A stretch of 28,182 nucleotides of DNA from a virus. The stretch is from IMG/VR virus record IMGVR_UViG_3300013005_000130, positions 1 to 28,182 of that record; one strand, given 5' to 3'. Positions 2,223-21,976 of the stretch are shown here, piece by piece. The position numbers and the translations under genes were made by a program. Positions within the stretch are counted from its first letter, which is position 1. Every line of letters starts with the position of its first letter. The notes under the pieces are model-generated. The model was given only the letters and a program-made list of their open reading frames with translations, searched no databases and had not been told where the DNA came from.

Positions 2223-2223
2223 C

Positions 2224-5847: not shown

Positions 5848-6424
5848 TAAAATTTTAGAATTCGAAAATGCTCTCGCTGAGTACACTGGAGCCCCCTATG
5901 CTATCTCAACAGATTGCTGTACTCATGCTATAGAACTATGTCTCCTTTACAACGATATATCAACTTGTAAGTTCACTGCATATACATATCTTAGCATACC
6001 AATGACTATGGTCAAATTAAACATTAGTTTTGAATATATTGAAGAATCGTGGATAGGTGAATATCAGTTTCATGGAACTAACATATGGGACAGCGCAAGA
6101 CGCTTAGAAAAAAATATGTATAGACAAGGAACAATGCAATGCTTAAGTTTTGGTCACACCAAACCTTTAAATAATGGTAGAGGTGGAGCAATACTACTAG
6201 ATGATAAAACTGCATATAACAAAATAATTAAAATGCGATACGATGGTCGAGATCTAGCTGTAAGTCCGTGGGTAAATCAAAAACATTTTTTGTTAGGTTA
6301 TCATTATAAAATGAACCCTGAAGAGTGTATAAGTGCTTTGGAAAAATTAAAAATCTACAAAGAAAGTAATCCAATTTATGTAGAATACCCCGATTGTAGG
6401 AAAATAAAAATTGATAAAAAGTAA
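5840..6424 (+). CDS. half-length DegT/DnrJ/EryC1/StrS-type PLP protein
   Basis: The 194-residue product matches the large domain of sugar aminotransferases of the DegT/DnrJ/EryC1/StrS family. The PLP-anchoring Asp is seen in IWDSARR (D84), and the Schiff-base Lys in LSFGHTKPLNNGRGG (K108). A GYHYKMNPEECISALEKL segment then matches the family stretch that follows. Normal members are about 360-400 residues; here the protein stops right after that point, so the whole C-terminal domain is absent. No remnant is seen downstream, where the next gene begins in another frame. It may be a natural short form working with a partner, or a reduced enzyme. The family's role is to transaminate keto-sugars. 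It overlaps both neighbours (8 and 14 bases). Confidence 0.78.
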   Translation: MFNKILEFENALAEYTGAPYAISTDCCTHAIELCLLYNDISTCKFTAYTYLSIPMTMVKLNISFEYIEESWIGEYQFHGTNIWDSARRLEKNMYRQGTMQCLSFGHTKPLNNGRGGAILLDDKTAYNKIIKMRYDGRDLAVSPWVNQKHFLLGYHYKMNPEECISALEKLKIYKESNPIYVEYPDCRKIKIDKK

Positions 6425-7322
6425 TAACGAGTGGAATCAACTTCAAGAAGTAATATTAGGCACAGCTACCAATGCACATTGGCCTGTAGTATGTCCTATA
6501 TTTAGAAATTTAGAAAACACAACAGCATGGAAAGAAACTCCTGTTTCGTCTGGACCAGTTGATATAAAAATTATAGAAGAGACTAACGAAGATTTAGAAA
6601 AATTCCAAATAGTATTAGAATCATTAAATGTCAAAGTATATAGACCCAAAGATTTAGATTTTCAATCATTTGACGGTATGTATAACTATTGTCCTAGAGA
6701 TAGAGTATTGGTGGTAGGCGACACTGTCATCGATGCACCGATGTTATATCCGACTAGAAAAAAAGAATTATCGGCTATTAACCACCTGCTAAATGATCGT
6801 ACAATTGTCTGTGAAGATTCGTCTGTGATTTTTGATGCAGCTAATATTTGTAGACTCGGACAAGATCTGTTATATCTCGTAAGTGACAGCGGAAACATTG
6901 CAGGAGCTAATTGGTTACAACAAATTTTACCGGAACATAGAATACACATTCTCGATAATATCTATAGTGGTGTTCATATCGATAGCACCATATCACCTGT
7001 TAGGGAAGGATTAGTTGTGTTAAATGCAGACAGAATAAACAACAATAATTTACCGACTGTTTTCAAACACTGGGATAAAATTTGGATAGAAGGAACAAAT
7101 ATAATTCCGCAAGGTTTTGTTAACTACCCCTATGCGAGTAAATATATTGCTCTTAATTTCTTAACCATAAATCCGAATCTTGTAATATGTGACCCCAATC
7201 AAAGCTATTTAAGGGCCGAACTGTTTAAACATAAGGTTGAAACTATAGGAGTAGAATTAAGACATAGTAGAACATTAGGTGGCGGACACCACTGTGTCAC
7301 ATTAGATCTAGTCAGGGCATAA
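6411..7322 (+). CDS. amidinotransferase (glycine / inosamine-phosphate amidinotransferase family)
   Basis: This 303-residue protein resembles the family that moves the amidino group of arginine to an amine acceptor (glycine in AGAT; scyllo-inosamine phosphate in StrB1). The catalytic triad is visible: D142 (FDAANICRLG), H189 (GVHIDSTI) and the nucleophile C295 in LGGGHHCVTLDL, matching human AGAT D254/H303/C407 in order and context. PRDRVLVVGDTVIDAPM near residues 95-111 is a further family segment. It is shorter than AGAT (about 420 residues) but complete across the core. The start is TTG 6411 with AGGA at 6398-6401. Next to sugar enzymes, an amino-sugar or amino-acid acceptor that becomes guanidinylated is a likely but unproven product. 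It overlaps the mini-aminotransferase by 14 bases. Confidence 0.88.
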   Translation: MIKSNNEWNQLQEVILGTATNAHWPVVCPIFRNLENTTAWKETPVSSGPVDIKIIEETNEDLEKFQIVLESLNVKVYRPKDLDFQSFDGMYNYCPRDRVLVVGDTVIDAPMLYPTRKKELSAINHLLNDRTIVCEDSSVIFDAANICRLGQDLLYLVSDSGNIAGANWLQQILPEHRIHILDNIYSGVHIDSTISPVREGLVVLNADRINNNNLPTVFKHWDKIWIEGTNIIPQGFVNYPYASKYIALNFLTINPNLVICDPNQSYLRAELFKHKVETIGVELRHSRTLGGGHHCVTLDLVRA

Positions 7323-7323
7323 C

Positions 7324-8562
7324 ATGGAATATACACAAGATATTTTTTGGAATAATATTCCTAATACGAAAGGAAGAATTTATAAAAAATTAGGATTTTT
7401 AGAAAAAAAATCTATTAAAAATACTTTTTTAAAAGATTTAAAAAACCCGTATTATATATGGACCGGGTGTGGTCGAATACATCAATTAGAAAATATAATC
7501 TTAATTCCTAAAATACAAAATAGCATTAGAAGAAAAGAAATTTATTTCTTTCTATACGAACCAATATGTATTAAAATAAATGATTCCTATAACAGATCTT
7601 TTTATAGTGAATTTGGCCCCAACGATGATCTTAGTAACATAATTTCCGAAGAATTAGAAAGTATAAAAATATTTGTAAAAAATAATAATATTGATAATTT
7701 TAGAATTTTTACCTCTGATTACAATATACAGTTAATACAAACAAGGTATCCTGATTTAAAAATTAATTGTCTTGATATTTTTCTTAGAGATGTATCAAGG
7801 AACTATTCAAATTTACTACAATTACGGGCAAGGCCTGTAATAGCGAATAATAATGATTGGCTATTACAAAATAATATCACTAAAAAATTCTGGTGCGGTA
7901 ATTGGAGATATGCAATTCACAGGCATATTATTATGAGTTATTTGGCCACTATAGACGGAGTTTATACTTGGAACTTAAAATGTTCATATGAAGAATTAGA
8001 AAAAAACAATTGGTTTGATTTGAAGAATTTTGAACAGACTGATCCTGTTCGATATACTCAATTAAAAACAGGTGTGGACTATCTTTACAATAATATATTT
8101 GTAATAGATCAAAATATTGATGCAGTCGTTGTTAAAGGATACGATGAAGTAGTTATACCAGGAAATAATGCTCCCATGCCGAATAAACAATTTTTACAAA
8201 GTTACATAAGTAGTTTTTGCGGAATTATTAACGAAACCAGATTTGCTCAACCTTTCGGATACTTTAGTGAAAAAACACTAACTGCATTATATTCAAAGAT
8301 TCCTATAGTATTAGTTGCACCGCCATATACGTTGGAATACCTCAGAACGTTTGGTTTTAAAACTTTTGATAAATGGTGGGACGAAAGCTATGATATTGAA
8401 ACAAATCATCACAAGAGAATAATTAAAATATTTGAGGTTATTGATTATATAAATTCTAAATCTATAGAAGAACTAAAAAAAATATATTCTGAAATGGCAG
8501 AAATTTTAAATCATAATCAAGAAATAACAAAAACTATTCAATGGAACGATAAAATACTATAG
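7324..8562 (+). CDS. glycosyltransferase-like protein, GT10-style C-terminal motif
   Basis: This 412-residue protein is a paralogue of the genes at 10737-11906 and 12732-13970. The shared parts are an NWRYAIHRHI segment (about 193-202) and a C-terminal block from about residue 302 (INETRF, then FSEKTLTALYSKIPIVL, FGFKTF and DESYD at 353-357). This block resembles the donor-binding region of fucosyltransferase-type (GT10) proteins seen in phages, which is the basis for the call; the acceptor is unknown. The N-terminal half is not recognised. The gene is extremely AT-rich (one 60-base line, 7381-7440, has only 6 G/C), unlike the fibre genes. It ends by overlapping the convergent radical SAM gene by 29 bases. 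Confidence 0.6.
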   Translation: MEYTQDIFWNNIPNTKGRIYKKLGFLEKKSIKNTFLKDLKNPYYIWTGCGRIHQLENIILIPKIQNSIRRKEIYFFLYEPICIKINDSYNRSFYSEFGPNDDLSNIISEELESIKIFVKNNNIDNFRIFTSDYNIQLIQTRYPDLKINCLDIFLRDVSRNYSNLLQLRARPVIANNNDWLLQNNITKKFWCGNWRYAIHRHIIMSYLATIDGVYTWNLKCSYEELEKNNWFDLKNFEQTDPVRYTQLKTGVDYLYNNIFVIDQNIDAVVVKGYDEVVIPGNNAPMPNKQFLQSYISSFCGIINETRFAQPFGYFSEKTLTALYSKIPIVLVAPPYTLEYLRTFGFKTFDKWWDESYDIETNHHKRIIKIFEVIDYINSKSIEELKKIYSEMAEILNHNQEITKTIQWNDKIL

Positions 8563-10702
8563 GCTTAGAAACAGTATTAGACAATTCGATGTTATTAATA
8601 CTAGAATTATTCCAAGTTCCTTCTCCTTTCCAACTCCAATTAAAATTCCAATCCGTAATTTGATTTAAGTAAAATTCTTCATTTAACAAATTATCAAAAT
8701 CCTCATGACTTCTTCCGTTTTCACCCCATTTAGGTTTCGCTAGTTGTCTTGCTCGAATTGCAGCATTGCCTTGCATCCTAGAAAATTCTTGAGCAAAAAA
8801 TGGTCCGTGGCGATACTCTTCTCTGGTGTCATTTGTTGAATCATATCCTTGTATAAAGTCAATTTTAAAATCTGCATTCCACTTTCCTGATTTATCAATT
8901 TGAAAATTATATTCTGCTGTGTAGAGACCGGTACCAAAGTGCCCTCCGAATTCTGCAACATCCATAGCAGGATTAAATTTTATACAAATATCGTATCCAC
9001 CGCGAGCTCTCCAAAGGGTTCTTAAAATAGGCCATATTTCATTTACAAGAGAATCAGCATACGGATTAATCTCTGTGGTAATTATATTATAATCAAAATT
9101 TTCGTACGAAATTTCATTTTGAATCGAATCATCGTGAAAACTTAACTTATAATGACTCTTCTTTAATTCGGGACGAAACGGATAGGTAAAAGATTTTTCT
9201 GTAATTAGGCTATCAACAAAAATATTAAAAGATTTTACTCTAGTTAACACATGACTACCTCCTAATTTAAAATCTTTGGTAATCCAAAATCCTAGATACT
9301 TGTGAGACGACAGATTAAATCTATCAGGATTTTGTCCTACAATGGTTTCTGGACCCATTCCAAATCCCATGCCGGTTCCTATATTATTAATATTCATGTT
9401 TCTATTTCTCCACAAGAATGTCATAGTATCGGCAAAATCTTGATATGTTTCTGTCGGAAATCCAACTATCCAATTTGTTGCTGCTTCGATTCCAACTGCC
9501 TTGCCATCTCGAAAGTTCTGTTCCATTTCGGATATTGTTACACCTTTATCGATATCGTTAAGGACTTTCTGGCTACCTGATTCACACCCATAATTTAGTG
9601 CAATGCATCCGCTGTCTGCGAGATCCTTTAAATATTCAAGATCCATTCTTCCATCACATCTGGCATAGCCTGTCCATTTTATTTTTAATCCTTTAGCTAT
9701 TACACCTTTGGCAAATGCTCGAAGTTCTTTAAGATTACCGTTAACAAGACTATCAATAAACCAAATGATATCTGTACCTTTATTATAATATAGCCATTCA
9801 ATTTCTGCAAGTGCATCAACTGCTTGCCGTTGTCTGTATTTCCAAAAGTGTGTTTCTTCACAGAAAGTGCATTTTGCTGTGCAGCCACGACTGAGCTCAC
9901 TGTTTACTCCATTTGGAATATCGTAATCATTGAAATCAATCGACGAATAATCGGGCATCGGCAATTTATTAAGATTAATCCGTTGCCCTTCTGGTTGTTG
10001 AATATACTGTGGGGTATTATGTGTTATACCTAGTTCAACTTCGTTCAATATATCTAAAATTGCTTGTTCACCTTCACCGTTTACTACATAATCATAATAT
10101 GATTCGATATTAAACCAACCATGTTGAACATTACTTCCGCCAACAACGATTTTTACATTCGGTAATTGTTTTTTAATTTCTTGAATCATCCATTTAGTAG
10201 GTTCTTCATTAAATTGATAAACAGAGAATCCTAATAGATCCGGTTTTAAATCTACTATTTGTTTTAAATAATCGTTTAAGATTTCTTGAAATAATGGGTG
10301 TACGAATTTATAATAGTTTTCACCGACCCACCGCCAACTACTTGCCGAATTCCATAAACTAAAATTCGTTGATGGCCCTATTGCTATTTTATATTTCCAC
10401 TCCTTAAAACATTTTGAATTTATGTCTAAGATAGTAGACTGATAACCAGCTTCTTTAGCAACCGCACTCAATCTAGCAAGATTAAAAGGAGGAAATGTAG
10501 CTGCCCATTCCGGAAGCAATACTAATACTAATTTAGTTTTTCTGGTAGCATAATCAATCGATACGGTAGTAACATTTTTTTGCACCGATGGTTTAGCATA
10601 AGGTGAGATAGCCTTTAACATATTTAAATGTCGATCATTTGCATCGTTAGGGATTTCTCTAGATTCTGATTTTTTTCGATGCAGATTTAAATTAAATACC
10701 AA
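8534..10702 (-). CDS. radical SAM protein with B12-binding-like N-terminal domain (TTG start)
   Basis: This 722-residue protein has three parts. Residues about 57-245 look like the Rossmann fold of cobalamin-binding radical SAM proteins (VLVLLPEWAATFPPFNLARL, LLGFSVYQFN, VVGGSN, YVVNGEGEQAI). The classical DxHxxG motif is not seen, as is common in this group. The radical SAM domain follows with C274-x3-C278-x2-C281 (RGCTAKCTFC), GCESGSQKVL (372-381) and WIVGFPTET (411-419). The last 220 residues are a domain I do not recognise. Known relatives include methylases and ring-modifying enzymes, so a methyl transfer or carbon-skeleton change on a sugar or peptide is possible. The start is TTG 10702 with AAGGA (10713-10709) six bases upstream; there is no nearby ATG. 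Confidence 0.85.
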   Translation of the reverse strand: MVFNLNLHRKKSESREIPNDANDRHLNMLKAISPYAKPSVQKNVTTVSIDYATRKTKLVLVLLPEWAATFPPFNLARLSAVAKEAGYQSTILDINSKCFKEWKYKIAIGPSTNFSLWNSASSWRWVGENYYKFVHPLFQEILNDYLKQIVDLKPDLLGFSVYQFNEEPTKWMIQEIKKQLPNVKIVVGGSNVQHGWFNIESYYDYVVNGEGEQAILDILNEVELGITHNTPQYIQQPEGQRINLNKLPMPDYSSIDFNDYDIPNGVNSELSRGCTAKCTFCEETHFWKYRQRQAVDALAEIEWLYYNKGTDIIWFIDSLVNGNLKELRAFAKGVIAKGLKIKWTGYARCDGRMDLEYLKDLADSGCIALNYGCESGSQKVLNDIDKGVTISEMEQNFRDGKAVGIEAATNWIVGFPTETYQDFADTMTFLWRNRNMNINNIGTGMGFGMGPETIVGQNPDRFNLSSHKYLGFWITKDFKLGGSHVLTRVKSFNIFVDSLITEKSFTYPFRPELKKSHYKLSFHDDSIQNEISYENFDYNIITTEINPYADSLVNEIWPILRTLWRARGGYDICIKFNPAMDVAEFGGHFGTGLYTAEYNFQIDKSGKWNADFKIDFIQGYDSTNDTREEYRHGPFFAQEFSRMQGNAAIRARQLAKPKWGENGRSHEDFDNLLNEEFYLNQITDWNFNWSWKGEGTWNNSSINNIELSNTVSKPIVFYRSIE

Positions 10703-10736
10703 AATTATTCCTTTTCAATATTTTAACAACTAAAAA

Positions 10737-11906
10737 CTAAATTGTCAATGATGTATGTATAAACTCTGTTTTGTTTTTTAACACATAATAATTGTAATTA
10801 CAAATCTTTCGAGCTTCGACTAAAAAAGTCTGTAGCTCTTGATCTTTTAAATTACATAATCTGTGTACTTCTTTAACTATGGCAAACATTCTCTCGTCAT
10901 CTTTTACAATGCTATCATATGATTCATCTATAATACTTTCAAAAGTTTTGTAACCTAGTTTTTTAAGATACTGTAAAGAATTAGGCACACTTACTATCAC
11001 AAACGGATGTTTCATTGCGATACATTTAAAAATTTTTTCGCTTAAAAAAGGCACACCGTCATACCCGGACTTAGTATGGAATGTTGTTTCAGTAACTATA
11101 CTAAAATATGTATCAAGATAATATACATCCGTTGATCTTGTTTGTTCTGCACGATTGGTTACTAAATCGTTGGTATCTAAATACATCAACGGAAGTTCTT
11201 TTATTTTTATGTTTCTTTTAAAAATCTCTAACATTGTCGGAGAATCAAAATAATACCTATGCATTTCTGCCCACCGATTATCCCATGTATCTTGATCGAA
11301 GTCTGATTTACCAAAACTAATATATCCGTGGTCGATAAGATTGTAATTATGAAGTAATGTTAGTAGAACAGGTCGATGCAAACGCCAACGTCTGTTGAAG
11401 TTTATATATTTTTTCTTATAATCCTTAATACTTAAAGTATCTATAGGTTTTGTTATTTGGTGTTGAATAACATCCCATAGTTGATATTCAAACATTGACC
11501 ACCATTCGACACTTATTTGATCTTGATTAAATTTTTCTGCAAGATGTTTAACATGTTCGTGCATTGTGGGCACCGAAGACATAAAGATAATCTGACTTGC
11601 GGGAATTTTTCCAGGTAATACAATATTATAATAAATTCCATCAGCTGATTTTAGGAAAGGTTCAAGACCGTTGTCTAATACAACGTATACTTCTCTATTT
11701 CGAATCCTATTTAAAATATCTAATGGTATGAGATCTAAGATATCAAACAACCTAAAACTATTATGACAAGAAAATTGACAATACCAATATTCAAAATTTT
11801 CATTTTTTCTAGCAGATATTCCGGTCGACCCATCAATTAACTCTAATCTAGGGTTGGCCGAATCGTATGTTATTAGATATGGAAATTTTGGATTTAAGCA
11901 GGGCAT
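10737..11906 (-). CDS. glycosyltransferase-like protein, GT10-style C-terminal motif
   Basis: This 389-residue protein is a paralogue of the genes at 7324-8562 and 12732-13970. It shows NRRWRLHRPVLL (171-182), VTETTF (271-276), SEKIFKCIAMKHPFVIV (289-305), LGYKTF and DESYD (327-331). The pattern resembles the donor-site half of fucosyltransferase-like phage proteins, so a glycosyltransferase is likely; sugar and acceptor are unknown. ATG 11906 is the first start after an in-frame stop but has no clear ribosome site. A 74-base AT-rich gap separates it from the upstream SGNH gene, and 34 bases separate it from the radical SAM gene downstream. Confidence 0.6.
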   Translation of the reverse strand: MPCLNPKFPYLITYDSANPRLELIDGSTGISARKNENFEYWYCQFSCHNSFRLFDILDLIPLDILNRIRNREVYVVLDNGLEPFLKSADGIYYNIVLPGKIPASQIIFMSSVPTMHEHVKHLAEKFNQDQISVEWWSMFEYQLWDVIQHQITKPIDTLSIKDYKKKYINFNRRWRLHRPVLLTLLHNYNLIDHGYISFGKSDFDQDTWDNRWAEMHRYYFDSPTMLEIFKRNIKIKELPLMYLDTNDLVTNRAEQTRSTDVYYLDTYFSIVTETTFHTKSGYDGVPFLSEKIFKCIAMKHPFVIVSVPNSLQYLKKLGYKTFESIIDESYDSIVKDDERMFAIVKEVHRLCNLKDQELQTFLVEARKICNYNYYVLKNKTEFIHTSLTI

Positions 11907-11980
11907 CGGAGTCTTGTAGGTAAATTAGGATTAGTGAAATTGTATATATTAATAAGAGGAATTTTTTTTATTCAATATTT

Positions 11981-12739
11981 TCATAATCGAGTAACGTATG
12001 CTCTTTTAAATGTTAAATCATCAAAATTTCTTACATTTTCCATTTTAGTTTGTTCATGTTGAACAAATTCAATAGTATCATTCAACCAACAGTAGTCCGG
12101 AAATAGTTTTTTAAGATAATTAAAGTGCTGAATAGGACTAGGATGATAATCTGCGGTTTGCCCTCCTTCCTTGCGGATAGGATGTTGAGGCCATTTACCT
12201 TTTAATTCAAAAGTTAATATGTCTGGTAATAATTTATCAAGTGTTGGTTTGTATAACTCAAGCAGCTGTTTGACATTTTGATCCATTTTTTTACTTGTTG
12301 ATTGTAAGTGATCAAACGGAGCCATATTTAACATATAATGGTCAACGCTGAGGTTTTCAAGTAGAGTACTGGCTAAGGTTATTAAATTTAAATCTCGTAA
12401 CAGATACCCAGTTGGATCTGCATATTTTTGTACAAAGTTGTCGTCATAATAATTTTGAGTATAGATGTTGCCGGGTGTAAGCCAACTGTTATTAATATAT
12501 CGATCTTCCCTCGATACTCCAGACCACATTATCATAATTAAATCAGTATCATTAAAACTGTGTCGCAAACTTGCTTCGGTTAGTTGACACGATATAAAAA
12601 GATTGCCGCCACCACTTTGGCCGTAATTATGAAATTCCGGAATTTCTTGTGAAATAATATCCGCCCAGGTTGGCCATCCGTACGAGGTCATACTACATCC
12701 GAATGCAAAAAATCGTTTATATTTTTTAAAATCAACCAT
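11981..12739 (-). CDS. SGNH/GDSL hydrolase-like protein
   Basis: The start is ATG 12739, with AGGAG (12751-12747) seven bases before it; the frame is open from 12784 but that start lies deeper in the upstream gene. The 252-residue product has FAFGCSMTSYG with S16 as the likely nucleophile (block I), NYGQSGGGN (38-46, block II), and a C-terminal TADYHPSPIQH with D197, H199 and H205 (block V). Family members are esterases and acetyl- or acyl-transferases that act on sugars and lipids, so adding or removing an O-acyl group from a phage glycan is plausible. It shares the H-P-x4-H spacing with the protein at 15141-16082. The block III Asn is not obvious, which leaves activity uncertain. Confidence 0.7.
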   Translation of the reverse strand: MVDFKKYKRFFAFGCSMTSYGWPTWADIISQEIPEFHNYGQSGGGNLFISCQLTEASLRHSFNDTDLIMIMWSGVSREDRYINNSWLTPGNIYTQNYYDDNFVQKYADPTGYLLRDLNLITLASTLLENLSVDHYMLNMAPFDHLQSTSKKMDQNVKQLLELYKPTLDKLLPDILTFELKGKWPQHPIRKEGGQTADYHPSPIQHFNYLKKLFPDYCWLNDTIEFVQHEQTKMENVRNFDDLTFKRAYVTRL

Positions 12740-13970
12740 TAAAATACTCCTTAGAAGATTCAATAGCTTGAGATAAAGATTCATGATAAAAGTGTCTGTT
12801 TCTAATTAAATGAAAATTATGTTCTATGGTGCTTCTAGATTCCATTATACGTTTAACCTTTGCTTCTCGAGATAACTGTATCCACCATTGTAAAATTTCA
12901 TGTGTCTTAAAAAATCTTTCTTGATGGTCAGTAATATCATTGTACGATGGGTCTATCCCGCACCAATCTATTTTAAATCCCAAATCTTGAATAGCTCTAA
13001 GCGTACCGGCAGAAGCCAGCAAAATTAACGGATGTCCGAATGCTATCGGTTTATAAATTTTTTCGGTAGGAAATACAACATTTTCATTAAATTTGGTTTC
13101 TGTTACAAACGACATTAAACTATTATTGTAAAACATATGATTATAGTATTCAGCGGCATTAGTATTCGACCAATTACCATCGACAAATCTAGGGTAATGG
13201 GTTTCTAACACACCGGAAAATTCTTCTATACTTACGTTTACTATGTTTGCTCCGGCGTGATCTGTGAGAGATATTTCATTACATGAGATAATGCCTTTGT
13301 CTAATAATTTATTTTTCGCAAGATAATAACAATGAGCACCTCTATGAGATCTATAAACCCTATTTAAACTAGTAAAATCAAATTCAGCAACAGCAATTGC
13401 CGTATCAATTGATGGACTAGTAGGTAGGAATTTCTTATTAAAAAACAAATTAGTAAAATGACTAGAATATTGAACATCAAACATTTTAGGATGATTGGTA
13501 TTTTCTAACCATAGATCATAATCTTTTTTAATTGTAAAATTACCTTGTATGATTAATATTGACCCGGGTGGTAACCCAAGTTCTATCATAGCATTCGTAG
13601 TAGATAAAAATGCATTTTGATCAACAATATTCATTGAGCCACCTTCTTTATCAGCAGCTATTATTATTCTAATTTTTTTATTTTTAACTAAATTTATCAA
13701 TTCATCTGATAGGTAAGAAAGTATATGCTTAGTTGGCACATCCGGGCCGCGACATACACCCGCCCACCATATCGGATCTGCATTCACATCAATAAAATAA
13801 CCTCCAGGTTCGTCGACCCTAGATATCAAATCTACCTCAACATTCATTTCTTCTAAATGTTTTTTTATATCAGTTCCCCTAGATACTAACCACCAATTGC
13901 TCTTTCCTCGAGACTGTAGTGGCAATAAATTTGACTCGTTAGGTGTTAATGTGTCAAAGTAAATTTTCAT
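12732..13970 (-). CDS. glycosyltransferase-like protein, GT10-style C-terminal motif
   Basis: This 412-residue protein shares with its two paralogues an NRVYRSHRGAH segment (203-213), FVTETKF (288-294), FPTEKIYKPIAFGHPLIL (300-317), LGFK and a DPSYND variant (340-345) of DESYD. The N-terminal 200 residues differ from the paralogues (WWLVSRGTDIKKHLEEM; then DPIWWAGVCRGPD), which suggests a different acceptor. ATG 13970 overlaps the upstream radical SAM stop (ATGA), and its own TGA overlaps the SGNH start by eight bases, so the three genes look translationally coupled. The call rests on motif likeness only. Confidence 0.6.
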   Translation of the reverse strand: MKIYFDTLTPNESNLLPLQSRGKSNWWLVSRGTDIKKHLEEMNVEVDLISRVDEPGGYFIDVNADPIWWAGVCRGPDVPTKHILSYLSDELINLVKNKKIRIIIAADKEGGSMNIVDQNAFLSTTNAMIELGLPPGSILIIQGNFTIKKDYDLWLENTNHPKMFDVQYSSHFTNLFFNKKFLPTSPSIDTAIAVAEFDFTSLNRVYRSHRGAHCYYLAKNKLLDKGIISCNEISLTDHAGANIVNVSIEEFSGVLETHYPRFVDGNWSNTNAAEYYNHMFYNNSLMSFVTETKFNENVVFPTEKIYKPIAFGHPLILLASAGTLRAIQDLGFKIDWCGIDPSYNDITDHQERFFKTHEILQWWIQLSREAKVKRIMESRSTIEHNFHLIRNRHFYHESLSQAIESSKEYFNG

Positions 13971-15151
13971 ATGAATAACTCTCGTAATTCTGGAAAAGTA
14001 TTAACAAAACTCCTATTTCTAATTGTATCGTAATGAATTGTGGTGTTCATAAATTGTTTTCTCAGCATCGGATCATAATTAGAATTTTGTAAGTATGTAA
14101 TTACTTTTTGTATTTCTTTATTAATAGATTGAGTGTAATTTAGATTGTTTAATTTGTTCATAATTATTTTTTTTAAATCATCTGGAATAACATCTGCACT
14201 ATAATAATTAGGATTCATAATATTATAAAAATAAGGATAAAAATTATTATCAGAAAATAATTTACTTTCTAACAAATAATTTAAAAATTCAGGTATGGTA
14301 AAAAGATTAAAAACAGAAATCACCGATCCGGTTTGTAGTTTGACATGAGGTACTTCTTGTTGAACCGTTTTAATATTATATTCGATATCTTTCCAAACAG
14401 TACCTTCTCTAATATATTCTGCTCGTTCTCCCCAGCTATCTATGCTTGCGTTGATATTAACATTAGAAAAGTTTTTCCATAGATCAATAACTGATTTATT
14501 TTTATATTTTAGATTACTTAAATTAGTATTATAGTCAATTTTTACATCGGTTTTTCCTATTGAAATTAAGTGTTCTAGTATGGAATAATGTTTATCAGTA
14601 AGCAGTGGTTCGCCTCCGGCAAAATAAAAAACCTCGATATCTTTTAGATATGGCAAGAATTCATTGTATAATTTATCATTAGAATCGCCACCGGCTATAA
14701 TATAAACATTTTTAGTTTGTCCTTGAGCATTATCTTCTTGTGCCCATGTAGATGAATAAGTACTGCTGCAACTGAGACATTTGAAATTACAAATATTACT
14801 CCATCGTATATCAAAGTGGCGCAATGATAATTCTTCTAAAAACCCATCTTCCTTTGTATTGTCTACAAGATTAAAGAATTTCTTATATTCGTTGTTTCTA
14901 CTCTGTCTAACACTCTGAATTCCTTTGTCTTCTGCTTGATAGCAGCCAGTACACTCAGCACATCTATCGCCGGCAAGCATTTTTTTTCTCAAATTTTTAT
15001 AACTGTCATTATTCCATATTGTTTTTACAGTTTCATTTCGCAAGTTACCGAGCGGTTTATGATGATCTGCAACGCAACAAGGAAGAACAGAACCATCCGG
15101 GTTGGCATAGATATGTATCCAAGGTAAGATACAAAATGTTTTAGATATCAT
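13967..15151 (-). CDS. radical SAM protein with N-terminal SPASM/twitch-like Cys cluster
   Basis: This 394-residue protein begins with a Cys-rich domain (FCILPWIHIYANPDG, C25-C26, then C64, C67, C70 in GDRCAECTGC) of the SPASM/twitch type, which binds an extra Fe-S cluster. The radical SAM domain follows with C121-x3-C125-x2-C128 (ICNFKCLSC) and GGEP at 179-182. The usual order in SPASM enzymes is radical SAM first; here the extra cluster is N-terminal, as in the paralogue at 16057-17430. Related enzymes modify peptides or sugars by radical chemistry; the substrate here is unknown. The start ATG 15151 overlaps the SGNH-like gene upstream by 11 bases and has an AGGATGGAAAG ribosome region. Confidence 0.85.
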   Translation of the reverse strand: MISKTFCILPWIHIYANPDGSVLPCCVADHHKPLGNLRNETVKTIWNNDSYKNLRKKMLAGDRCAECTGCYQAEDKGIQSVRQSRNNEYKKFFNLVDNTKEDGFLEELSLRHFDIRWSNICNFKCLSCSSTYSSTWAQEDNAQGQTKNVYIIAGGDSNDKLYNEFLPYLKDIEVFYFAGGEPLLTDKHYSILEHLISIGKTDVKIDYNTNLSNLKYKNKSVIDLWKNFSNVNINASIDSWGERAEYIREGTVWKDIEYNIKTVQQEVPHVKLQTGSVISVFNLFTIPEFLNYLLESKLFSDNNFYPYFYNIMNPNYYSADVIPDDLKKIIMNKLNNLNYTQSINKEIQKVITYLQNSNYDPMLRKQFMNTTIHYDTIRNRSFVNTFPELRELFI

Positions 15152-16082
15152 CTTTCCATCCTGCTTTTCTAATTAAGTACTGTGCCCATAATAAATGAGA
15201 GAATTCGTTTGGATGGTGTGAATGGAGCGGATTGCCTTTGATAAAATTATTAGATTGCTCTATAATATCTATTTCCTTCAATAACAGCGATTTATCAAAT
15301 TTAACAGTCTTATAACTACCATCATTGATTATTGAATCGAGCCACCCTACAGAATAAAATGACGGTGCTTGTAACTTAGTCCCTAATATGCTTGCAGAAT
15401 ACTGTATCCAAGTTTTATCTACAATTTTAAAATTTCGTTCTTGTTTTTTAGAATTTATTTTACAGAAATTTTTCCATAATACACATTCTAAATTATTATA
15501 TTGAGAAATAATCGATTGATACTGATCAAAAAAAATATCGTCGTATCTTTCTAACCAATCGCTAAATGTGAGATGTTCGGTGCATTTGATTAATTTATGT
15601 AGGGGATGATTACGTAATTCATCAACGAGAGATTGTTCTCTCGATGGCTCTGTCATTTGCATACACACATAGATTTTTTCGTAATTTAATGCACTGGTTT
15701 TTTTCAATATTCTTTCTAGTTCAGTAAACATATAAAAATTACAATTTCCAGGTACTGCATATTGATATAAATCGGTATCAAGCATTGTTGCCATACGCGG
15801 TCCTAGGGTAAAAAATAGTTGTGTTTCAAAATTAAATTTCTCAATTCCTGTAGCTATTCCTTTAACTGCTTCACCGTAGGTCCAACTTTCGCCAATTACT
15901 ATTAATAGATTTTTTCTTTTTCTATTCACATGAAATTCTGTATACTGAGCCGGGCGTTCGATCCAACCTGGTTTAAGATTATTGTCTACAAAATCAATTT
16001 GCACAGAGTCTTTTAATAGATAATATATCGGATTATTTTTTATATGTGCTGTTATATTATACTGCGATAGCATTACAATCAT
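15141..16082 (-). CDS. SGNH hydrolase-like protein
   Basis: This 313-residue protein shows LLIVIGESWTYGEAV with S66 as the likely nucleophile, a QYAVPGNCNFYMF segment that fits the Gly/Asn blocks, and a C-terminal HSHHPNEFSH. There H290 and H296 keep the H-P-x4-H spacing also seen in the SGNH protein at 11981-12739. It is therefore probably an esterase or acyltransferase-like enzyme, but low similarity leaves room for a non-catalytic role. It lies between two radical SAM genes and overlaps both (26 bases upstream, 11 downstream). Two nearby ATGs (16082 and 16073) are possible starts; neither has a strong ribosome site. Confidence 0.6.
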   Translation of the reverse strand: MIVMLSQYNITAHIKNNPIYYLLKDSVQIDFVDNNLKPGWIERPAQYTEFHVNRKRKNLLIVIGESWTYGEAVKGIATGIEKFNFETQLFFTLGPRMATMLDTDLYQYAVPGNCNFYMFTELERILKKTSALNYEKIYVCMQMTEPSREQSLVDELRNHPLHKLIKCTEHLTFSDWLERYDDIFFDQYQSIISQYNNLECVLWKNFCKINSKKQERNFKIVDKTWIQYSASILGTKLQAPSFYSVGWLDSIINDGSYKTVKFDKSLLLKEIDIIEQSNNFIKGNPLHSHHPNEFSHLLWAQYLIRKAGWKDDI

Positions 16083-17430
16083 CCATAAATGTTACTAATT
16101 GAGGAAATGTTATTTTAAAATCTGTACCTCGGCGGCGATCATATTCGGTAAACCAATTAAAGAAGTCTCTGCGCCCCTCTTTTACTTTTTCTGGTGTATA
16201 GACCGTGGTTTCCATGTATTTTACCACTCTTAGAAATTTCTCATACTCTAAGTTACTGAATTTGCTGGGGTTTTTATCGTCTAAATTGGCTAGAATGAAG
16301 TCTAGATGGTTTATCATGTAAGGCATAAACTCGTCTTTGGGTAGAATATTCATATCATACTGCAGAGGTTCTTTAAGGAATGGAGTGTCAAATCTCACTC
16401 GTTGTGGTTTATCTTGATCACTGCTGTTGTATTTTTCACGCCATTGCAGGATTTTAGCCAATAATGTTTGAAAATTCGTTACAGTAAGTATATTGAATGT
16501 GATCATAAAAGTCACTGGCAGTCTAGTTTTTGAGAGATAACGATCTAGATTACTTTCCCATAAATCTAAATCTAATCCTGTACGAATGTATTCTGCAGGA
16601 GCTCCCCACGTATCTATGCTTGTGAAGATTTTAAAATTTTTAATACAGCCAGTATTAACTAGATTGTTTACCTTTTCAATCAATCGATCAATTAATATAG
16701 ATTTCACACCGAAATTACTGTTGATGTTTAATTCTAAATTTGGTAACGGGTTTATTTCTAGGTCATCTAAAAGACGCCATGTGCTTTGTTGCAGCAAAGG
16801 TTCGCCGCCAGTGATACGTAGAATCGTCAAGGTCTTGCGAACTTCGGGCCACCAACGCCACCATGCTTCTACATAGGGATTAGTTTCTTCTTCGTGAATT
16901 TTAAACCAATCAATATCATTACGATGATTTTTCACCATTGTGTACGGACCATGATCTTTGATTTCTTTGTAATAACTGCTGCTGTGTTTGGGATGACAGT
17001 ATCCGCATTTGAAATTGCATTCGTTACCAAATGAAATTTCTATATACTGCGGATTTATGTTTTGATCCCAGTCACCGTTTTTTATCTGTGCAAAGCGCTG
17101 GTCTGTATAGATTGTGGCATTTCTTTCTTTTCTATCCGATATGTAATCGTCTCCTAGCTTTTCTATATTCCAGCAATAATTACAACCCTTGGGCTTGCCT
17201 CCGTTAAGCATGTCGAGACGCTCAAGTTTTTTTTCTGCGGTGTTGTGTAATGCACTGGGATCAATCTGTATTTCTTGTAGAGGTATTTTATGAGGTGCAG
17301 GATGATAACAACTGTGCGTTTCTCCTGTTTGTAGATAGATAGTGGTATGGTGCCATTTAGCCATACAGAATGTAGGACTAATTTCATTCATTATAGGTAT
17401 AAATGTTTTAATCTTTTCTACATCGTTCAT
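16057..17430 (-). CDS. radical SAM protein with N-terminal SPASM/twitch-like Cys residues
   Basis: This 457-residue protein is built like the one at 13967-15151. An N-terminal segment with C22, C41, C83 and C86 (FCMAKWHHTT; GCNYCWN) comes first, followed by the radical SAM core C138-x3-C142-x2-C145 (ECNFKCGYC) and GGEP at 208-211. IDTWGAPAEYIRTGLD (about 276-291) matches IDSWGERAEYIREGT in the paralogue, so the two derive from a common ancestor. The C-terminal third is longer here. Catalysis would need a [4Fe-4S] cluster supplied by the host. ATG 17430 is preceded by AGAGGAAC and overlaps the upstream gene by 23 bases. Its local base composition looks less AT-rich than the genes around it. 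Confidence 0.85.
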   Translation of the reverse strand: MNDVEKIKTFIPIMNEISPTFCMAKWHHTTIYLQTGETHSCYHPAPHKIPLQEIQIDPSALHNTAEKKLERLDMLNGGKPKGCNYCWNIEKLGDDYISDRKERNATIYTDQRFAQIKNGDWDQNINPQYIEISFGNECNFKCGYCHPKHSSSYYKEIKDHGPYTMVKNHRNDIDWFKIHEEETNPYVEAWWRWWPEVRKTLTILRITGGEPLLQQSTWRLLDDLEINPLPNLELNINSNFGVKSILIDRLIEKVNNLVNTGCIKNFKIFTSIDTWGAPAEYIRTGLDLDLWESNLDRYLSKTRLPVTFMITFNILTVTNFQTLLAKILQWREKYNSSDQDKPQRVRFDTPFLKEPLQYDMNILPKDEFMPYMINHLDFILANLDDKNPSKFSNLEYEKFLRVVKYMETTVYTPEKVKEGRRDFFNWFTEYDRRRGTDFKITFPQLVTFMDDCNAIAV

Positions 17431-18454
17431 TGAACTGTTCCTCTAACCAAGTAAAGTCATTTATCATTTTTAGTGCTTCTAGATTATTTTTATTTTCTGA
17501 TCCGTAGTCTCTACCGGCTCTAGCACCATCTAAGGCATATTCATCTGTGGATTTATTACACCACACATTTAATCTATATTGTGTTTCTTCACCCTGCTGA
17601 CGATCTATAATCTTACTAGATAATTTCACGCATTCTCTAAAGGCTGATTTCCAAGTATTAAATGGATCTGTATTAAATGCTGTTATATTAGAAACACTAT
17701 CTATTACTTTAAAATTATTACTAATACTAGTAGTCATATCAGTAGTGTTTACATCCATGTTTATGGTTTTTTCTCTTGGCAATAATTTTACTCCGCCATA
17801 TCCGTACACTAAATCATTTATAGGATTTCGACTGTGCCAAACATGCACATAAGATTTTTCATATCTAGGAACTGCATAATCAAATTTAAAATCTTCTACA
17901 ATTATAGCATCACCGTCTACTACATAAAACATGTCTGTTTCTGCTAATTTAGCTGCGGCAATATGTGCTTGATGAATTCCGTTAACTCCGTGAACACGAT
18001 TAACTAACGGAAATCTATTTTTTAAATTTATAAAATTATCATCGGCATTGGGTTCATTATAACTGATAAACACAATGTCATACTTTTCGAGTATAGGGTC
18101 AGAAGCAACAATGTTTATCTCTTTCTTTTCAACAAAAAACCTATTATCGAATTCTCTTTGAGATATAGTCAGACCTTTGGGAATTAAACAAATACCATCC
18201 TTGTGTTCACCATTTTTAAATACGTGTACATACATATCATCCCATTTAGTAGCTCGGTATGATGATAGATCAAAATCTTTTCTTATTTCAAGGTCATCCC
18301 ATATGACCCAAAACATTTTAGTAAAGGATTTTTTAAAAATATCTTCAATCCTTTGACAATTTTCTACAAACTGTGCGTTTGAAAATCTAGAAGAAACCAA
18401 CTGCTTTTTTTCTGCAGATATAAAATTTCTACTTACGAAAAATATGTCATACAT
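17408..18454 (-). CDS. DxD glycosyltransferase-like protein with N-terminal extension
   Basis: This 348-residue protein is a paralogue of its upstream neighbour. The shared block starts near residue 125 (YDIVFISYNEPNAD, then RVHGVNGIHQAHIAAAKLAE) and leads to VVDGDA, with D180 and D182 as the DxD-type metal/nucleotide-sugar site of GT-A glycosyltransferases. A further match is YGYGGVKLLPR against YGNGGLKLW. About 120 extra N-terminal residues are specific to this copy (YDIFFVSRNF; FWVIWDDLEIRKDFDL). The start is taken as ATG 18454, which overlaps the upstream TGA by eight bases; TTG 18475 is possible. Sugar and acceptor unknown. Confidence 0.65.
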   Translation of the reverse strand: MYDIFFVSRNFISAEKKQLVSSRFSNAQFVENCQRIEDIFKKSFTKMFWVIWDDLEIRKDFDLSSYRATKWDDMYVHVFKNGEHKDGICLIPKGLTISQREFDNRFFVEKKEINIVASDPILEKYDIVFISYNEPNADDNFINLKNRFPLVNRVHGVNGIHQAHIAAAKLAETDMFYVVDGDAIIVEDFKFDYAVPRYEKSYVHVWHSRNPINDLVYGYGGVKLLPREKTINMDVNTTDMTTSISNNFKVIDSVSNITAFNTDPFNTWKSAFRECVKLSSKIIDRQQGEETQYRLNVWCNKSTDEYALDGARAGRDYGSENKNNLEALKMINDFTWLEEQFNERCRKD

Positions 18455-19331
18455 TTTTATAATAGGTAAGCCCAAGATTTATAGTTTCATCATATAAATC
18501 TAAAGTAAATTTGCTTTGTTTTTCGTCAAGCCACGGCCAATCTAAGCCTAACTTAGCTCTCAAATGATAACCTAAATCTTGAGCATCATGTTCTACATCG
18601 AAATGCTTAACTTTAGTTTCATAGATTTCTCTCAACACTTCAAAATCTCGGACCTGGACGTAATCCCAGTCTGTGCAGTTAGTCATCCACGTTCCCATTC
18701 TAGCACCGAGTACGGCATATACTCCGTTTTCTTCGTGCATTCCAACGGTGCTCCACATACGTAATCTATGAATATTATGCCACCAAACACGTTCTCGAAT
18801 TTCTTGCGGGGGGACTTTTTCTCCGTCAAGTAAAGTCATCTTAACACCTTCACGGAATCCTGCTCTCCATGCTTGAAATGGCGATCCTGTGATAATACTG
18901 GTGCTATACACGCTAGGAAAATGTTGATATCCGTCTTCCCAACAAAAATCTACCTGGGCTCGATCACTTGTGGAATTTTCATGTGTTTTCATATCGAGCA
19001 CAAAATTCTTATTCCAGAGTTTCAGTCCACCGTTTCCATATCGCAATCCATTGACGTTATTTTGACCGCACCAACAATATACCTGTGTATTTGTGTTGCT
19101 CATATCAATATCTAGATTAAAAAATTTAGGATTAACAATGTTGTCTGCGTCAACAGTAATAAACCAATCAGTATCAGAAAGTTCTGCTGCGGCTTTGTGT
19201 GCGTGATCTGACCCTTTTACTCCGTGTACACGTTTAGCCCAAGGTACTTTATTACACAGGTCAGCATAATGCAAATCTGCATTAGGTTCGTCGTAGCTTA
19301 AAAATACTACATCAAATTCTACAATTTTCAT
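18447..19331 (-). CDS. DxD glycosyltransferase-like protein
   Basis: This 294-residue protein starts with a GT-A-like Rossmann segment (FDVVFLSYDEPNAD), then RVHGVKGSDHAHKAAAELSD and ITVDADN, where D61-x-D63 is the likely metal/nucleotide-sugar site. The C-terminal half has SPFQAWRAGFREGVKM, which is matched in the paralogue by DPFNTWKSAFRECVKL. No membrane segment is seen, so it is likely cytoplasmic. ATG 19331 overlaps the upstream stop (ATGA). Together with the next gene it looks like a duplicated transferase pair acting on successive sugars, which is inference. Confidence 0.68.
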   Translation of the reverse strand: MKIVEFDVVFLSYDEPNADLHYADLCNKVPWAKRVHGVKGSDHAHKAAAELSDTDWFITVDADNIVNPKFFNLDIDMSNTNTQVYCWCGQNNVNGLRYGNGGLKLWNKNFVLDMKTHENSTSDRAQVDFCWEDGYQHFPSVYSTSIITGSPFQAWRAGFREGVKMTLLDGEKVPPQEIRERVWWHNIHRLRMWSTVGMHEENGVYAVLGARMGTWMTNCTDWDYVQVRDFEVLREIYETKVKHFDVEHDAQDLGYHLRAKLGLDWPWLDEKQSKFTLDLYDETINLGLTYYKNV

Positions 19332-19945
19332 TTGTATTCTATCACATAATTTTTAAATAATCTACGTGTATACACACTGAATGTATCATAATTTAAATTT
19401 TTTATTATTTTATTTTTACCAATTAGTTCATTAATTTTTATAGAAAACATCTGATAAATCCCGTTAGGATCATTGTATTCGGTGATTAAAAAATCCATAA
19501 CAGTATTTCCATCCCAAACAACATTTCTTGGTTTTAGATTTATTTGATGTTTCTTGGTACCGCCAAATTCTTGAGACAATTGTATTTTTAATGTTTTGGT
19601 CTTCGCAGTATATGTTAAAAATATATCTGGTTGTGTGATATCAGTATATTCAGACGATACAATTCGATGTAACACATCGTCTAATTTTGTCAGTGTTTTT
19701 ATTTCAGCTATTTCTAATTTTCCCGAATTGATGTCTATTAAACATTTTTCAATTTGTATTTCTGCTGAAATAATACTTTGTGCTAGTTCGAGATCGATTG
19801 GTACTTGGTTGATTTGATCAGTGAATGCATAGTCAGGGCCCACGCTTTGAACCTTACCAGTCAAGGGATCAAACACTGCAACATAGGTCACTTCTGGAAG
19901 TTTATATTCAGCTAACCATTTATCAAAATCTTCTATCGTTTCCAC
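19328..19945 (-). CDS. phage protein of unknown function, 205 aa (GTG start)
   Basis: The start is GTG 19945, with AGAGGAAA a few bases before it. This 205-residue soluble protein has an N-terminal part with YVAVFDPLTGKVQSVGP and an acidic helical middle (LAQSIISAEIQIEKCLIDI). It does not look like an enzyme and I recognise no family. It lies inside the glycosyltransferase run, overlapping the gene on each side by 13 and 4 bases. A virion or scaffold protein that serves as target of the neighbouring transferases is possible but is only a guess from position. Confidence 0.7.
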   Translation of the reverse strand: METIEDFDKWLAEYKLPEVTYVAVFDPLTGKVQSVGPDYAFTDQINQVPIDLELAQSIISAEIQIEKCLIDINSGKLEIAEIKTLTKLDDVLHRIVSSEYTDITQPDIFLTYTAKTKTLKIQLSQEFGGTKKHQINLKPRNVVWDGNTVMDFLITEYNDPNGIYQMFSIKINELIGKNKIIKNLNYDTFSVYTRRLFKNYVIEYK

Positions 19946-20772
19946 GCTATTTCCTCTAAAATATGAATTAGCTCTCTATCAATTTTATTTTTTTCTACGT
20001 AATGAACTATATCATTTTGTTGATAATTACCTATTTTCAATCGACCGTGTTTATTGAGATAGAAACCAACATGGTCACTCCATGTATCTGCTGGCCATGG
20101 CCAATTCTGCAGGAGCGGTTTCATATGCACTACTCTTGGAAATTCTAAGGGATAAGCAATATCATCGGCAATATCTAATATTTGTGCAGCTAGAGCAAAT
20201 GCTTCGTCGGTTCCCATAATTTTTGGTTTATAGGCTGTTAAGAAAATATTTGTAAACTCTACAGGATATTGTATAATATATCTACCCAGATCAAAGAAGT
20301 CCTTGGTTATCGTTGCATCTTTTCGAAAAAAGGTCCACATAGAGTATAGATCGGGTAATTGATTCGCATCAAAGGTTTTTCTATAATTTCGATTAGTTGC
20401 TACATCACCTCTGTATGTGTAAACCTTGTTGGCCACATATAGATCACAATTTTCAACGAAATAATCTATCCAATGACTGTAATCTCTGGTAAACAACATA
20501 TCAACATCTAGACAAACTGTATGTTCAAAAGGAGATAGCTGATCCATCCAAGATCTACCATTCCAGAACGTCTGTTCGTCCCAGGATATAATGTGATCAA
20601 ATACCCAAGGACTTTTTAACTGTTCAACTTTTTCTTTATCATCTATTACCAGTGCTACTTTGTCATAACCTGGTTTTTGTGTGTTTTTTATACTAAGAGC
20701 AAGACCATATGCCAATTGCAGATAGTCAACAGTGTCGCTGTGTGATACGATAAGCAAATAGCCAAAATTCAT
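19933..20772 (-). CDS. glycosyltransferase, GT8-like
   Basis: This 279-residue protein looks like a GT-A/GT8-type transferase. The N-terminus reads GYLLIVSHSDTVDYLQLAYG, followed by VCLDVDMLF with D89-x-D91 as the metal-binding DxD, a GTDEAFALA segment later, and a C-terminal HMKP stretch (VVHMKPLLQNW) that fits the GT8 C-terminal His region. The length is typical. It is a paralogue of the gene directly upstream. ATG 20772 is preceded by GGAG and overlaps the upstream stop (ATGA). The sugar is unknown. Confidence 0.75.
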   Translation of the reverse strand: MNFGYLLIVSHSDTVDYLQLAYGLALSIKNTQKPGYDKVALVIDDKEKVEQLKSPWVFDHIISWDEQTFWNGRSWMDQLSPFEHTVCLDVDMLFTRDYSHWIDYFVENCDLYVANKVYTYRGDVATNRNYRKTFDANQLPDLYSMWTFFRKDATITKDFFDLGRYIIQYPVEFTNIFLTAYKPKIMGTDEAFALAAQILDIADDIAYPLEFPRVVHMKPLLQNWPWPADTWSDHVGFYLNKHGRLKIGNYQQNDIVHYVEKNKIDRELIHILEEIAWKR

Positions 20773-21629
20773 ATTAACTCCAACAATTGCTGTTGATTTC
20801 TAATAATACTCTGCTTGTTCATGATATGAATGTCAACTCCAGATATTGATGCAGCACAATAATTATTATCTAATTTATGATCTATAAGAAATGTTAAACG
20901 TCGATTATCAACACTATACAAAATATCTCTGTCGAGTGCAGATAAAATGGGTGGTAATGTTCCTAGATTAGATTCAACATACCCATCTAATATATGTTTG
21001 CTCACACTGAAAGCAATGTCATTTCTAAATTGTCGATGATCAAATCTAAAAACATCAGCATAGTGTCTATAATTTTCTTTAACGTGATTAACTGTATCAA
21101 AAAATAAGCGTGTATTTTGATTTTTAGTGAACATTATTGTAGTAGCCCAATATAATTTTACACCAGTATCTGAAATGTGTCTATCAAGATATTTCATTCT
21201 ATCTTGACTGTTAATATCATTTATAGATTCACCTATCAATAAATCGCAGTCTGTATGCCAATACTTGTTGAGAACATCGGAAAATATTAAAAAGTCACTG
21301 TCTATTAATAGAGTTCTATCATATGGCGTGAGACTCCAAGCAGAGTCTCGATTTACATTTATAAACGGTACTGTGCTACTGGTTTCGCCATCGTTAAGAC
21401 GTCTTTGATTATCAGTCACAGGTCTATCAACTGTGATGATGTTTTCAAAAACTGTATTAGCTATATCAAATGTTTGTGATTGTTTCATCCACGATATAGT
21501 AGAATCGTCAGTTACTAACGACACTGGCATAGACAAATGTTTTTTAGCTAGGCCAGCGCTGATAACAGCCATTAGTGCATAATCAACTGCACGAGTGTTA
21601 TGAGCATAGATTAATATACCGTGTGTCAT
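20769..21629 (-). CDS. glycosyltransferase, GT8-like
   Basis: This 286-residue protein has the same plan as the gene at 19933-20772. It shows an N-terminal GILIYAHNTRAVDYALMAV, then YDRTLLIDSDFLIF with D110-x-D112 as DxD. The C-terminal end is less like GT8 (HIMNKQS is the only His-containing candidate), so the acceptor side may differ. There is no signal peptide. It overlaps the 116-residue virion-type gene by an ATGA, which ties the transferases to the structural module. Confidence 0.7.
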   Translation of the reverse strand: MTHGILIYAHNTRAVDYALMAVISAGLAKKHLSMPVSLVTDDSTISWMKQSQTFDIANTVFENIITVDRPVTDNQRRLNDGETSSTVPFINVNRDSAWSLTPYDRTLLIDSDFLIFSDVLNKYWHTDCDLLIGESINDINSQDRMKYLDRHISDTGVKLYWATTIMFTKNQNTRLFFDTVNHVKENYRHYADVFRFDHRQFRNDIAFSVSKHILDGYVESNLGTLPPILSALDRDILYSVDNRRLTFLIDHKLDNNYCAASISGVDIHIMNKQSIIRNQQQLLELI

Positions 21630-21976
21630 GTATCTAATAATTTTTCTACAGACCTACTTTTTTTGATGTTTTGATAATGTTCAAAATATTCATTAGTAAC
21701 TTGGAAATATCTATCAAATATTTGATCACGGAATAATGTAAGATCATCTATAAGTATAGGATTTTGATTGATATCTAATAACACCACTGCATGTGTTCTA
21801 CCTTTGGTAATCAAGATTTCTACAAAAGTCAAGAGATCTCTGTCTATGCGAAAAATGCCCCCATTGATACCATAGGTAAGTTTGGCTTCCGAACGTTCTT
21901 TGAGGGTTTTTTTCTGTACGGAAAAAGTCTGTTGATAATTAGAAAAATCCAGAACTTTAGCGAGTTGCTCTTGCAT
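21626..21976 (-). CDS. small virion-module protein of T4-like aquatic phages, 116 aa
   Basis: This 116-residue protein contains YGINGGIFRIDRDLLTFV, AVVLLDINQNPILIDDL and a C-terminal helical YFEHYQNIKKSRSV. I associate this plan with small conserved proteins encoded beside virion genes of T4-like cyanophages, but that is from memory and the function is not known. ATG 21976 has GGAG directly before ACAAC and ATG, adjoining a perfect palindrome that holds a late-like box. As first gene of the run that continues into the transferases and radical SAM genes, it probably marks the 5' end of a late transcript covering them. Confidence 0.7.
   Translation of the reverse strand: MQEQLAKVLDFSNYQQTFSVQKKTLKERSEAKLTYGINGGIFRIDRDLLTFVEILITKGRTHAVVLLDINQNPILIDDLTLFRDQIFDRYFQVTNEYFEHYQNIKKSRSVEKLLDT

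Follow-up and report, generated by a model that had tools for sequence, protein, structure and literature searches.

Putative late glycan-modification locus with an exchangeable block of radical SAM, SGNH and glycosyltransferase genes in uncultured T4-like phages

Clusters of radical S-adenosylmethionine (SAM) genes have been noted in T4-like phages since 2010 without a function. In the Campylobacter phages CP220 and CPt10, an amidinotransferase gene and five radical SAM genes form an interchangeable module (Timms et al. 2010, PMC2853527), and in pelagimyophages a hypervariable island for host recognition contains transferases and radical SAM cassettes (Zaragoza-Solas et al. 2020, PMC7029224). 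Here we analyse a locus of this kind in the virus record IMGVR_UViG_3300013005_000130, a 28,182-bp stretch of DNA (the window, meaning its full length) that has the RNase H gene rnh at one end and tail-fibre genes at the other. Besides radical SAM enzymes and SGNH proteins, the locus encodes a nucleoside diphosphate (NDP)-sugar dehydrogenase, a mini-DegT protein, an amidinotransferase, an oxygenase, three transferases of the GT-B type and four others, a set that points to nucleotide-sugar and glycan chemistry. The locus probably produces a decoration of unusual sugar at a late stage of infection, and the virus particle or the surface sugars of the host are its most likely sites. The more specific reading that we favour, and to which we give somewhat less than an even chance, is that of an exchangeable cassette for glycan building that is expressed late and forms the variable half of a glycan-modification locus whose target is the virion.

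The modules of CP220 and CPt10 are like the window in coming from T4-related phages and in combining a radical SAM cluster with a glycine amidinotransferase-like gene and genes of the nucleotide-sugar-transferase fold, and their clusters are non-homologous between otherwise similar phages, indicating exchange en masse as in the window. Several radical SAM genes, an amidinotransferase and replacement en bloc are therefore common to both, but homology of the radical SAM enzymes is weak or absent, the Campylobacter module lies near baseplate genes, no SGNH gene was recognised in it, and its amidinotransferase is only 24% identical. The pelagimyophage cluster sits between vrlC and gp14, whereas the island in the window sits between the fibre genes and rnh; SGNH partners, a fixed core and late promoters are features of the window that the available part of that paper does not describe for the pelagimyophage cluster (PMC7029224). 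Among cultured phages, Synechococcus phage S-SCSM2R comes nearest in its set of enzymes: SSCSM2R_301-310 include, in a single run, 2-oxoglutarate (2OG) oxygenases, transferases, a 195-aa mini-DegT protein (41% identity), a radical SAM enzyme and an amidinotransferase (40%). However, that radical SAM enzyme matches no family of the window, no SGNH protein is annotated, and the cluster has no tail-fibre genes beside it. Vibrio phage K566 (VPHK566_0303-0314) has four twitch-type radical SAM genes interleaved with genes for GT8 and other transferases, one unit of which begins at the sole late-promoter motif in 29 kb; unlike the window, this cluster has LpxC and an annotated PagP gene as neighbours, has no recognised SGNH gene and shows 23% identity. 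The kind of locus is thus known but uncharacterised, and what is added here is the partnership of SGNH and GT-B genes, a core that stays fixed, the precise limits of the exchanged block and the signature of late promoters, for none of which a prior description was found in literature of incomplete coverage.

The best matches of the rnh product in the window are the RNase H proteins of large T4-related phages, and contigs of the window's relatives encode a T4-type gp23; the source is an uncultured T4-like phage group, that is, a virus of bacteria. One of the two twitch radical SAM proteins of the window, TWI2, has 427 viral relatives in IMG/VR, the best 80 of them at 78-100% identity. In cultured phages, tblastn searches with TWI2, the two SGNH proteins SGNH1 and SGNH2, and the transferases GTa, GT2a and GT8b gave no match, and those with the second twitch protein, TWI1, gave only distant Vibrio phage matches. 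Open reading frames (ORFs) in relatives were called with a simple ORF caller, and family labels there come from profiles built on the window's own families.

A core common to the phage group runs from the tail side as fibres, x116, GT8a, GT8b, x205, GT2a, GT2b and usually TWI2, followed by a variable block that extends to the conserved genes leading to rnh. Four relatives (L032, L034, L036 and L074) are 78-93% identical to the window in DNA over positions 1-4091 and again from about 16,100 outward, and have essentially no DNA match at 4092-16095, a single 246-bp piece of L032 at 69% aside. Since both flanks match and the interior does not, the roughly 12 kb at 4092..16095, with genes on both strands, have been exchanged as a whole, with TWI2 outside. 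The original prediction for this DNA, made from its letters alone, had proposed an expanded modular cassette of radical SAM, SGNH and glycosyltransferase-like genes on the minus strand, each unit making and then acylating or deacylating a modified sugar or peptide. The modular character, the sugar chemistry and the placement of SGNH genes next to glycosyltransferase or twitch genes, which recurs in many relatives, all held up; its boundaries did not, as the natural block includes plus-strand genes and leaves TWI2 in the conserved flank. Other blocks contain the same kinds of enzymes from other families, among them an epimerase, 2OG oxygenases, SGNH and GT-B proteins and further twitch proteins.

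In a set of loci found through a backbone gene, which comprises 29 closed cassettes and 17 loci that reach the tail side, GT2a and GT2b were present in all 17 of the latter, and TWI2 stood in the plain order in nine. Most of the remaining tail-side loci have a reversed thyX-like gene, assigned by its RHR motif, and little else; in loci without a cassette (L171-L250), this gene (RHRSFSFQEFSQRY) lies between GT2b and x101. Many relatives keep TWI1-GTa-SGNH2-GTb without SGNH1, and evolutionary distances among these four correlate at 0.86-0.95, with SGNH1 lower. Since the correlations are about as high with backbone genes, a separate co-transfer of the four genes is not supported.

The T4-type late promoter is TATAAATA, and the late promoter reported for T4-like cyanophages is NATAAATA (PMC2984593). 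The motif ATAAATA occurs 6 times in the window against an expectation of 17, and every one of these sites precedes a same-strand gene by 6-36 nt. Across 202 loci (2.6 Mb), 363 of 440 sites (82.5%) lay 5-90 nt before an ORF start, while twenty permuted motifs gave a median of 10% and a maximum of 29% in the same placement test. Within variable blocks, the motif was found within 150 nt of 22 of the 28 genes that open a new transcription unit but of only 3 of 382 internal genes; because the loci are related, these counts do not represent independent events, yet the difference is large. In the window, TATAAATA at 23015..23022 on the minus strand is upstream of the fibre gene that comes ahead of the entire minus-strand run, and no other minus-strand ATAAATA occurs from 23015 down to 8534. 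A divergent pair at 5311..5335 (ATAAATA at 5311 on the plus strand and at 5329 on the minus strand) marks the start of both the NDP-sugar dehydrogenase gene and the plus-strand unit with the genes for the 2OG oxygenase, DegT protein, amidinotransferase and GTc. The core gene x116 has the motif within 150 nt in 57 of 79 relatives. A scan for sigma-70-type promoters was uninformative. The motif suggests that the block is expressed late.

All seven minus-strand ORFs of the original prediction were present as described. Overlaps of 4-26 bp link the five at 11981-17430, and the other two come after intervals of 74 and 34 bp, suggesting a single co-transcribed run. TWI2 (16057..17430, minus strand, in the conserved flank), a radical SAM protein of the N-terminal twitch/SPASM type, and TWI1 (13967..15151, minus strand, in the variable block) score 313.9 and 396.5 bits against NCBIfam NF033640, a family of twitch-domain radical SAM proteins whose curated whole-protein cutoff is 170 bits. 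At its N-terminal end the family profile matches BtrN over the latter's twitch domain; the three cysteines of CxxxCxxC (C121/C125/C128) and the N-terminal C7, C67 and C70 are invariant in 24 sequences. The predicted common motif, I-D-[ST]-W-G-x-x-A-E-Y-I-R-x-G, is indeed found in both. The third radical SAM gene (8534..10702, minus strand) had correctly been called as such, but rather than the twitch type it is a cobalamin (B12)-binding radical SAM enzyme of methyltransferase-like architecture (PF02310, 43.8 bits; PF04055, 63.8 bits; both above cutoff). In two relatives (L032 11349-13811 and L093 11364-13814), TWI1-type ORFs of about 817-821 aa, some two times the usual length, are perhaps fusions.

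The paralogous pairs in the locus (TWI1/TWI2, GTa/GTb/GTc, GT2a/GT2b and GT8a/GT8b) are what a tandemly duplicated radical SAM-SGNH-glycosyltransferase unit, as originally proposed, would leave behind. However, TWI1 and TWI2 are only about 26% identical, and a tree of 88 twitch proteins separates them by a 100/100 branch, with each clade holding its own bacterial members, mainly from Bdellovibrionota and Bacteroidota. SGNH1 and SGNH2 have no detectable homology in a profile comparison (0.5% probability), and SGNH1 is missing from many of the loci with the four other genes. The histories of both pairs are thus separate, which refutes duplication for the twitch and SGNH genes and makes a repeated unit barely credible. 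What recurs is the adjacency of enzyme kinds. SGNH1 is flanked by TWI2 and TWI1 in 28 cases, a GT-B gene adjoins SGNH2 in nearly all cases, and the same holds for a third, separate SGNH family (SGNH3, a GDSL protein confirmed by Pfam) in 18 of 18. Among the closed cassettes of the backbone-anchored set, 8 of the 20 that include a twitch gene had an SGNH-type gene, and none of the 9 that lack one did (one-sided Fisher p = 0.03), a count that relies on motif-based recognition in related sequences. The expected co-occurrence elsewhere thus extends to phages, where SGNH genes accompany twitch cassettes, but not to bacterial twitch loci, in which no SGNH or GT-B families were seen with the profiles used.

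Searches of Pfam and of PDB sequences gave nothing useful for SGNH1, SGNH2, GTa and x205, and the structures of GTa and SGNH1 were therefore predicted. The AlphaFold2 model of SGNH1 (15141..16082, minus strand), built from an alignment of viral relatives, has a predicted local distance difference test (pLDDT) score of 90 and matches TesA at Z 11.3-11.4 (root mean square deviation 2.8 over 158 residues) and CE2 carbohydrate esterases at Z of about 11. By this model SGNH1, an esterase/acyltransferase-like protein, has the SGNH fold and is closest to TesA and the CE2 enzymes. Ser66, in GESWTYGE, and His290 are invariant in 21 relatives. Block V of SGNH proteins usually reads D-x-x-H-P; here it reads HxxHP in all 21 sequences, with an invariant His at the usual Asp site, so that membership of the fold stands and the classical catalytic triad does not. 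SGNH2 (11981..12739, minus strand) is SGNH-like by its FGCS..T and D-x-H-P motifs; GCS and D-x-H-P are kept throughout 15 relatives, in which S16, D197 and H199 are invariant. It had no match in Pfam, and its profile aligned with that of SGNH3 over block I and the GxGN block at a probability of 46%. The H-P-x4-H pattern that had been noted in both proteins is present, and its first His is the block V His, but the last His is not conserved among SGNH2 relatives. In one relative (L192 12146-13741, minus strand), a 531-aa protein on which Pfam is silent has an SGNH-like GCSYTAG motif in its C-terminal part and an unrelated N-terminal part, a possible fusion.

GTa (12732..13970, minus strand) was modelled with a pLDDT of 88. 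The model resembles Gtf3/GtfC, a glycosyltransferase of phage HY126, T4 BGT (12.8) and others at Z of about 13, reaching 13.2 over some 290-297 residues with several GT-B enzymes and so covering both domains, which identifies GTa, at the level of the predicted structure, as a GT-B glycosyltransferase. FUT9, at Z 12.0, is level with several unrelated GT-B families, so that the model settles the fold but not the family. The structure would be compatible with the suggested GT10 identity, but sequence profiles gave it no support, since none of 23 family members matched Pfam Glyco_transf_10 at E 0.05. GTb (10737..11906, minus strand) is a paralogue in the same family cluster at about 21% identity, and GTc (7324..8562, plus strand), a third paralogue, converges on the B12 radical SAM gene. 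The core transferases, whose GT8 and GT-A labels have weak or no Pfam support, are GT2b (17408..18475), which is GT-A-like and more divergent than its neighbours, its paralogue GT2a (18447..19331; weak Pfam match), and the GT8b-like (19933..20772) and GT8a-like (20769..21629) proteins, labelled from sequence pattern; all four are encoded on the minus strand. On the same strand lie x205 (19328..19945), a conserved core protein without a known family, and x116 (21626..21976), the first gene of the core operon, which often has its own late promoter in relatives; no relatives of either were identified in family searches.

The remaining enzymes of the block would supply the sugar. A nucleotide-sugar dehydrogenase-like gene (4082..5299, minus strand) is at the left end (TIGR03026, E 2.6e-44, below the curated cutoff). 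The plus-strand unit begins with a 2OG-Fe(II) oxygenase-like gene (5347..5847), 27% identical to S-SCSM2R_308, which is annotated as such an enzyme, and continues with a DegT/DnrJ/EryC1 aminotransferase of 194 aa (5840..6424; PF01041, E 1.4e-16; 41% over its full length to S-SCSM2R_305) and an amidinotransferase-like pentein gene with a C-terminal GGGHHC motif (6411..7322; 39.7% to the inosamine amidinotransferase of S-SCSM2R). At 194-195 aa, the DegT protein, noted also at L252 13293-13880, is about half the usual length and is conserved, at 41% in cyanophage S-SCSM2R and also in other viral loci; it retains the lysine motif SFxxTKxLxxGxGG and is possibly a functional mini-enzyme.

In the mechanism that we propose, the NDP-sugar dehydrogenase, mini-aminotransferase, amidinotransferase, 2OG oxygenase, and B12 and twitch radical SAM enzymes would act in the cytoplasm to build or tailor an unusual sugar, which the GT-B, GT8-like and GT-A-like transferases would attach, and the SGNH proteins would add an acyl group to, or remove one from, the product of the neighbouring transferase. 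The target, which is the least certain part, would most likely be a virion protein such as a tail fibre, and a swap of the block would then change the decoration while keeping the virion. The cassette proteins of the window lack any strongly hydrophobic segment, and searches of nine viral records for Wzx-type flippase and Bac_transf genes found none, which makes a cytoplasmic site for the chemistry probable. Export of the Wzx/PGT-dependent O-antigen type was rejected, as such genes were not found in these records. The late promoters, the linkage to fibre genes and the lack of anything membrane-bound together point to the virion. In its fullest form, this would be a combinatorial late glycosylation of the phage's own adhesins or virion proteins, with sugars made by radical SAM enzymes, edited by SGNH proteins and diversified by plug-in exchange of blocks behind a fixed transferase core, in a widespread uncultured T4-like group; taken as a whole, that proposal is rather unlikely.

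Glycosyltransferases in a T4-related phage could also hypermodify its DNA in the T-even style, and GTa does resemble T4 BGT among other GT-B enzymes, in a block that is swapped as anti-restriction traits often are. However, nine viral records, one of 160 kb, contain no gene of the thymidylate synthase/dCMP-hydroxymethylase type, although the records may be incomplete, and the motif identified ThyX and not ThyA. Late expression would also be late for modification of the genome. We reject T4-type DNA glycosylation as the principal explanation because of the missing synthase/hydroxymethylase family gene, and regard it as very improbable. As a side observation, a QueE-like radical SAM gene lies near rnh in L052 (11973-12830, minus strand) and in 23 further loci of this phage group, possibly for 7-deazaguanine metabolism.

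GT8-type transferases are common in the synthesis of the lipopolysaccharide (LPS) core, which makes LPS or another host surface glycan a conceivable substrate. Modified from the cytoplasmic side, such a glycan could block superinfection or stop progeny from sticking to debris. The same argument from GT8 and the LPS core has been made for pelagimyophages (PMC7029224). Several observations agree with a host glycan and weigh against a virion target. Vibrio phage K566 (L251 13965-25244) groups four twitch and two GT8 genes with an annotated PagP gene and LpxC (PF03331, E 1e-40) within 12 kb, which points to lipid A or LPS. The fibre proteins of L032, L034 and L074 are about 83-93% identical and yet stand beside unrelated blocks, so that block and fibre do not co-vary as might be expected if the fibre were the substrate. 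Some bacterial twitch genes are near ABC-2 type exporters, which also tells against our preferred target, and the viral contigs are mostly fragments, which we count on the same side. On the other hand, late promoters would act late for superinfection exclusion, though not for the protection of progeny, and no flippase or initiator of lipid-linked sugars was found, though modification of the core would not need them. We consider modification of a host glycan possible, with a chance well below even.

Peptides are frequent substrates of SPASM/twitch radical SAM enzymes, and the twitch enzymes might modify a peptide or protein, either similar to a ribosomally synthesized and post-translationally modified peptide or belonging to the virion, with the sugars being secondary. 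Late promoters would be compatible with a virion peptide. In bacteria, twitch genes are found near other sugar, transport or PqqD-like genes; in the metagenome-assembled Bacteriovoracaceae genome L164, a PqqD-like protein of 95 aa (8557-8844, minus strand) is encoded divergently from a TWI2-type gene (8945-10336, plus strand), with a carbamoyltransferase gene nearby, possibly a bacterial peptide-modification locus. However, no PqqD-like gene or small precursor-like gene was recognised in the phage locus, and most of the partner enzymes belong to nucleotide-sugar chemistry, which leaves a peptide substrate improbable. Outside the viral records, a 153-kb contig binned as Candidatus Neomarinimicrobiota (L155, PBPT01000082.1) carries fibres, x116, GT8, GT2a and two TWI2-like genes and resembles a T4-like phage of the window's group; its bin also contains T4-type gp23 genes, and the contig is likely a mis-binned phage.

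In conclusion, this locus gives the radical SAM clusters of T4-like phages a defined setting: fixed neighbours, clear limits of exchange, SGNH genes partnered with GT-B genes and, over roughly two hundred loci, a signature of late promoters. It also directs attention to cultured phages as places to look for the product. If that product is on the virion, as we favour, the locus would serve to diversify the phage surface through unusual sugar chemistry; if it is on LPS, it would be a late receptor-masking system.

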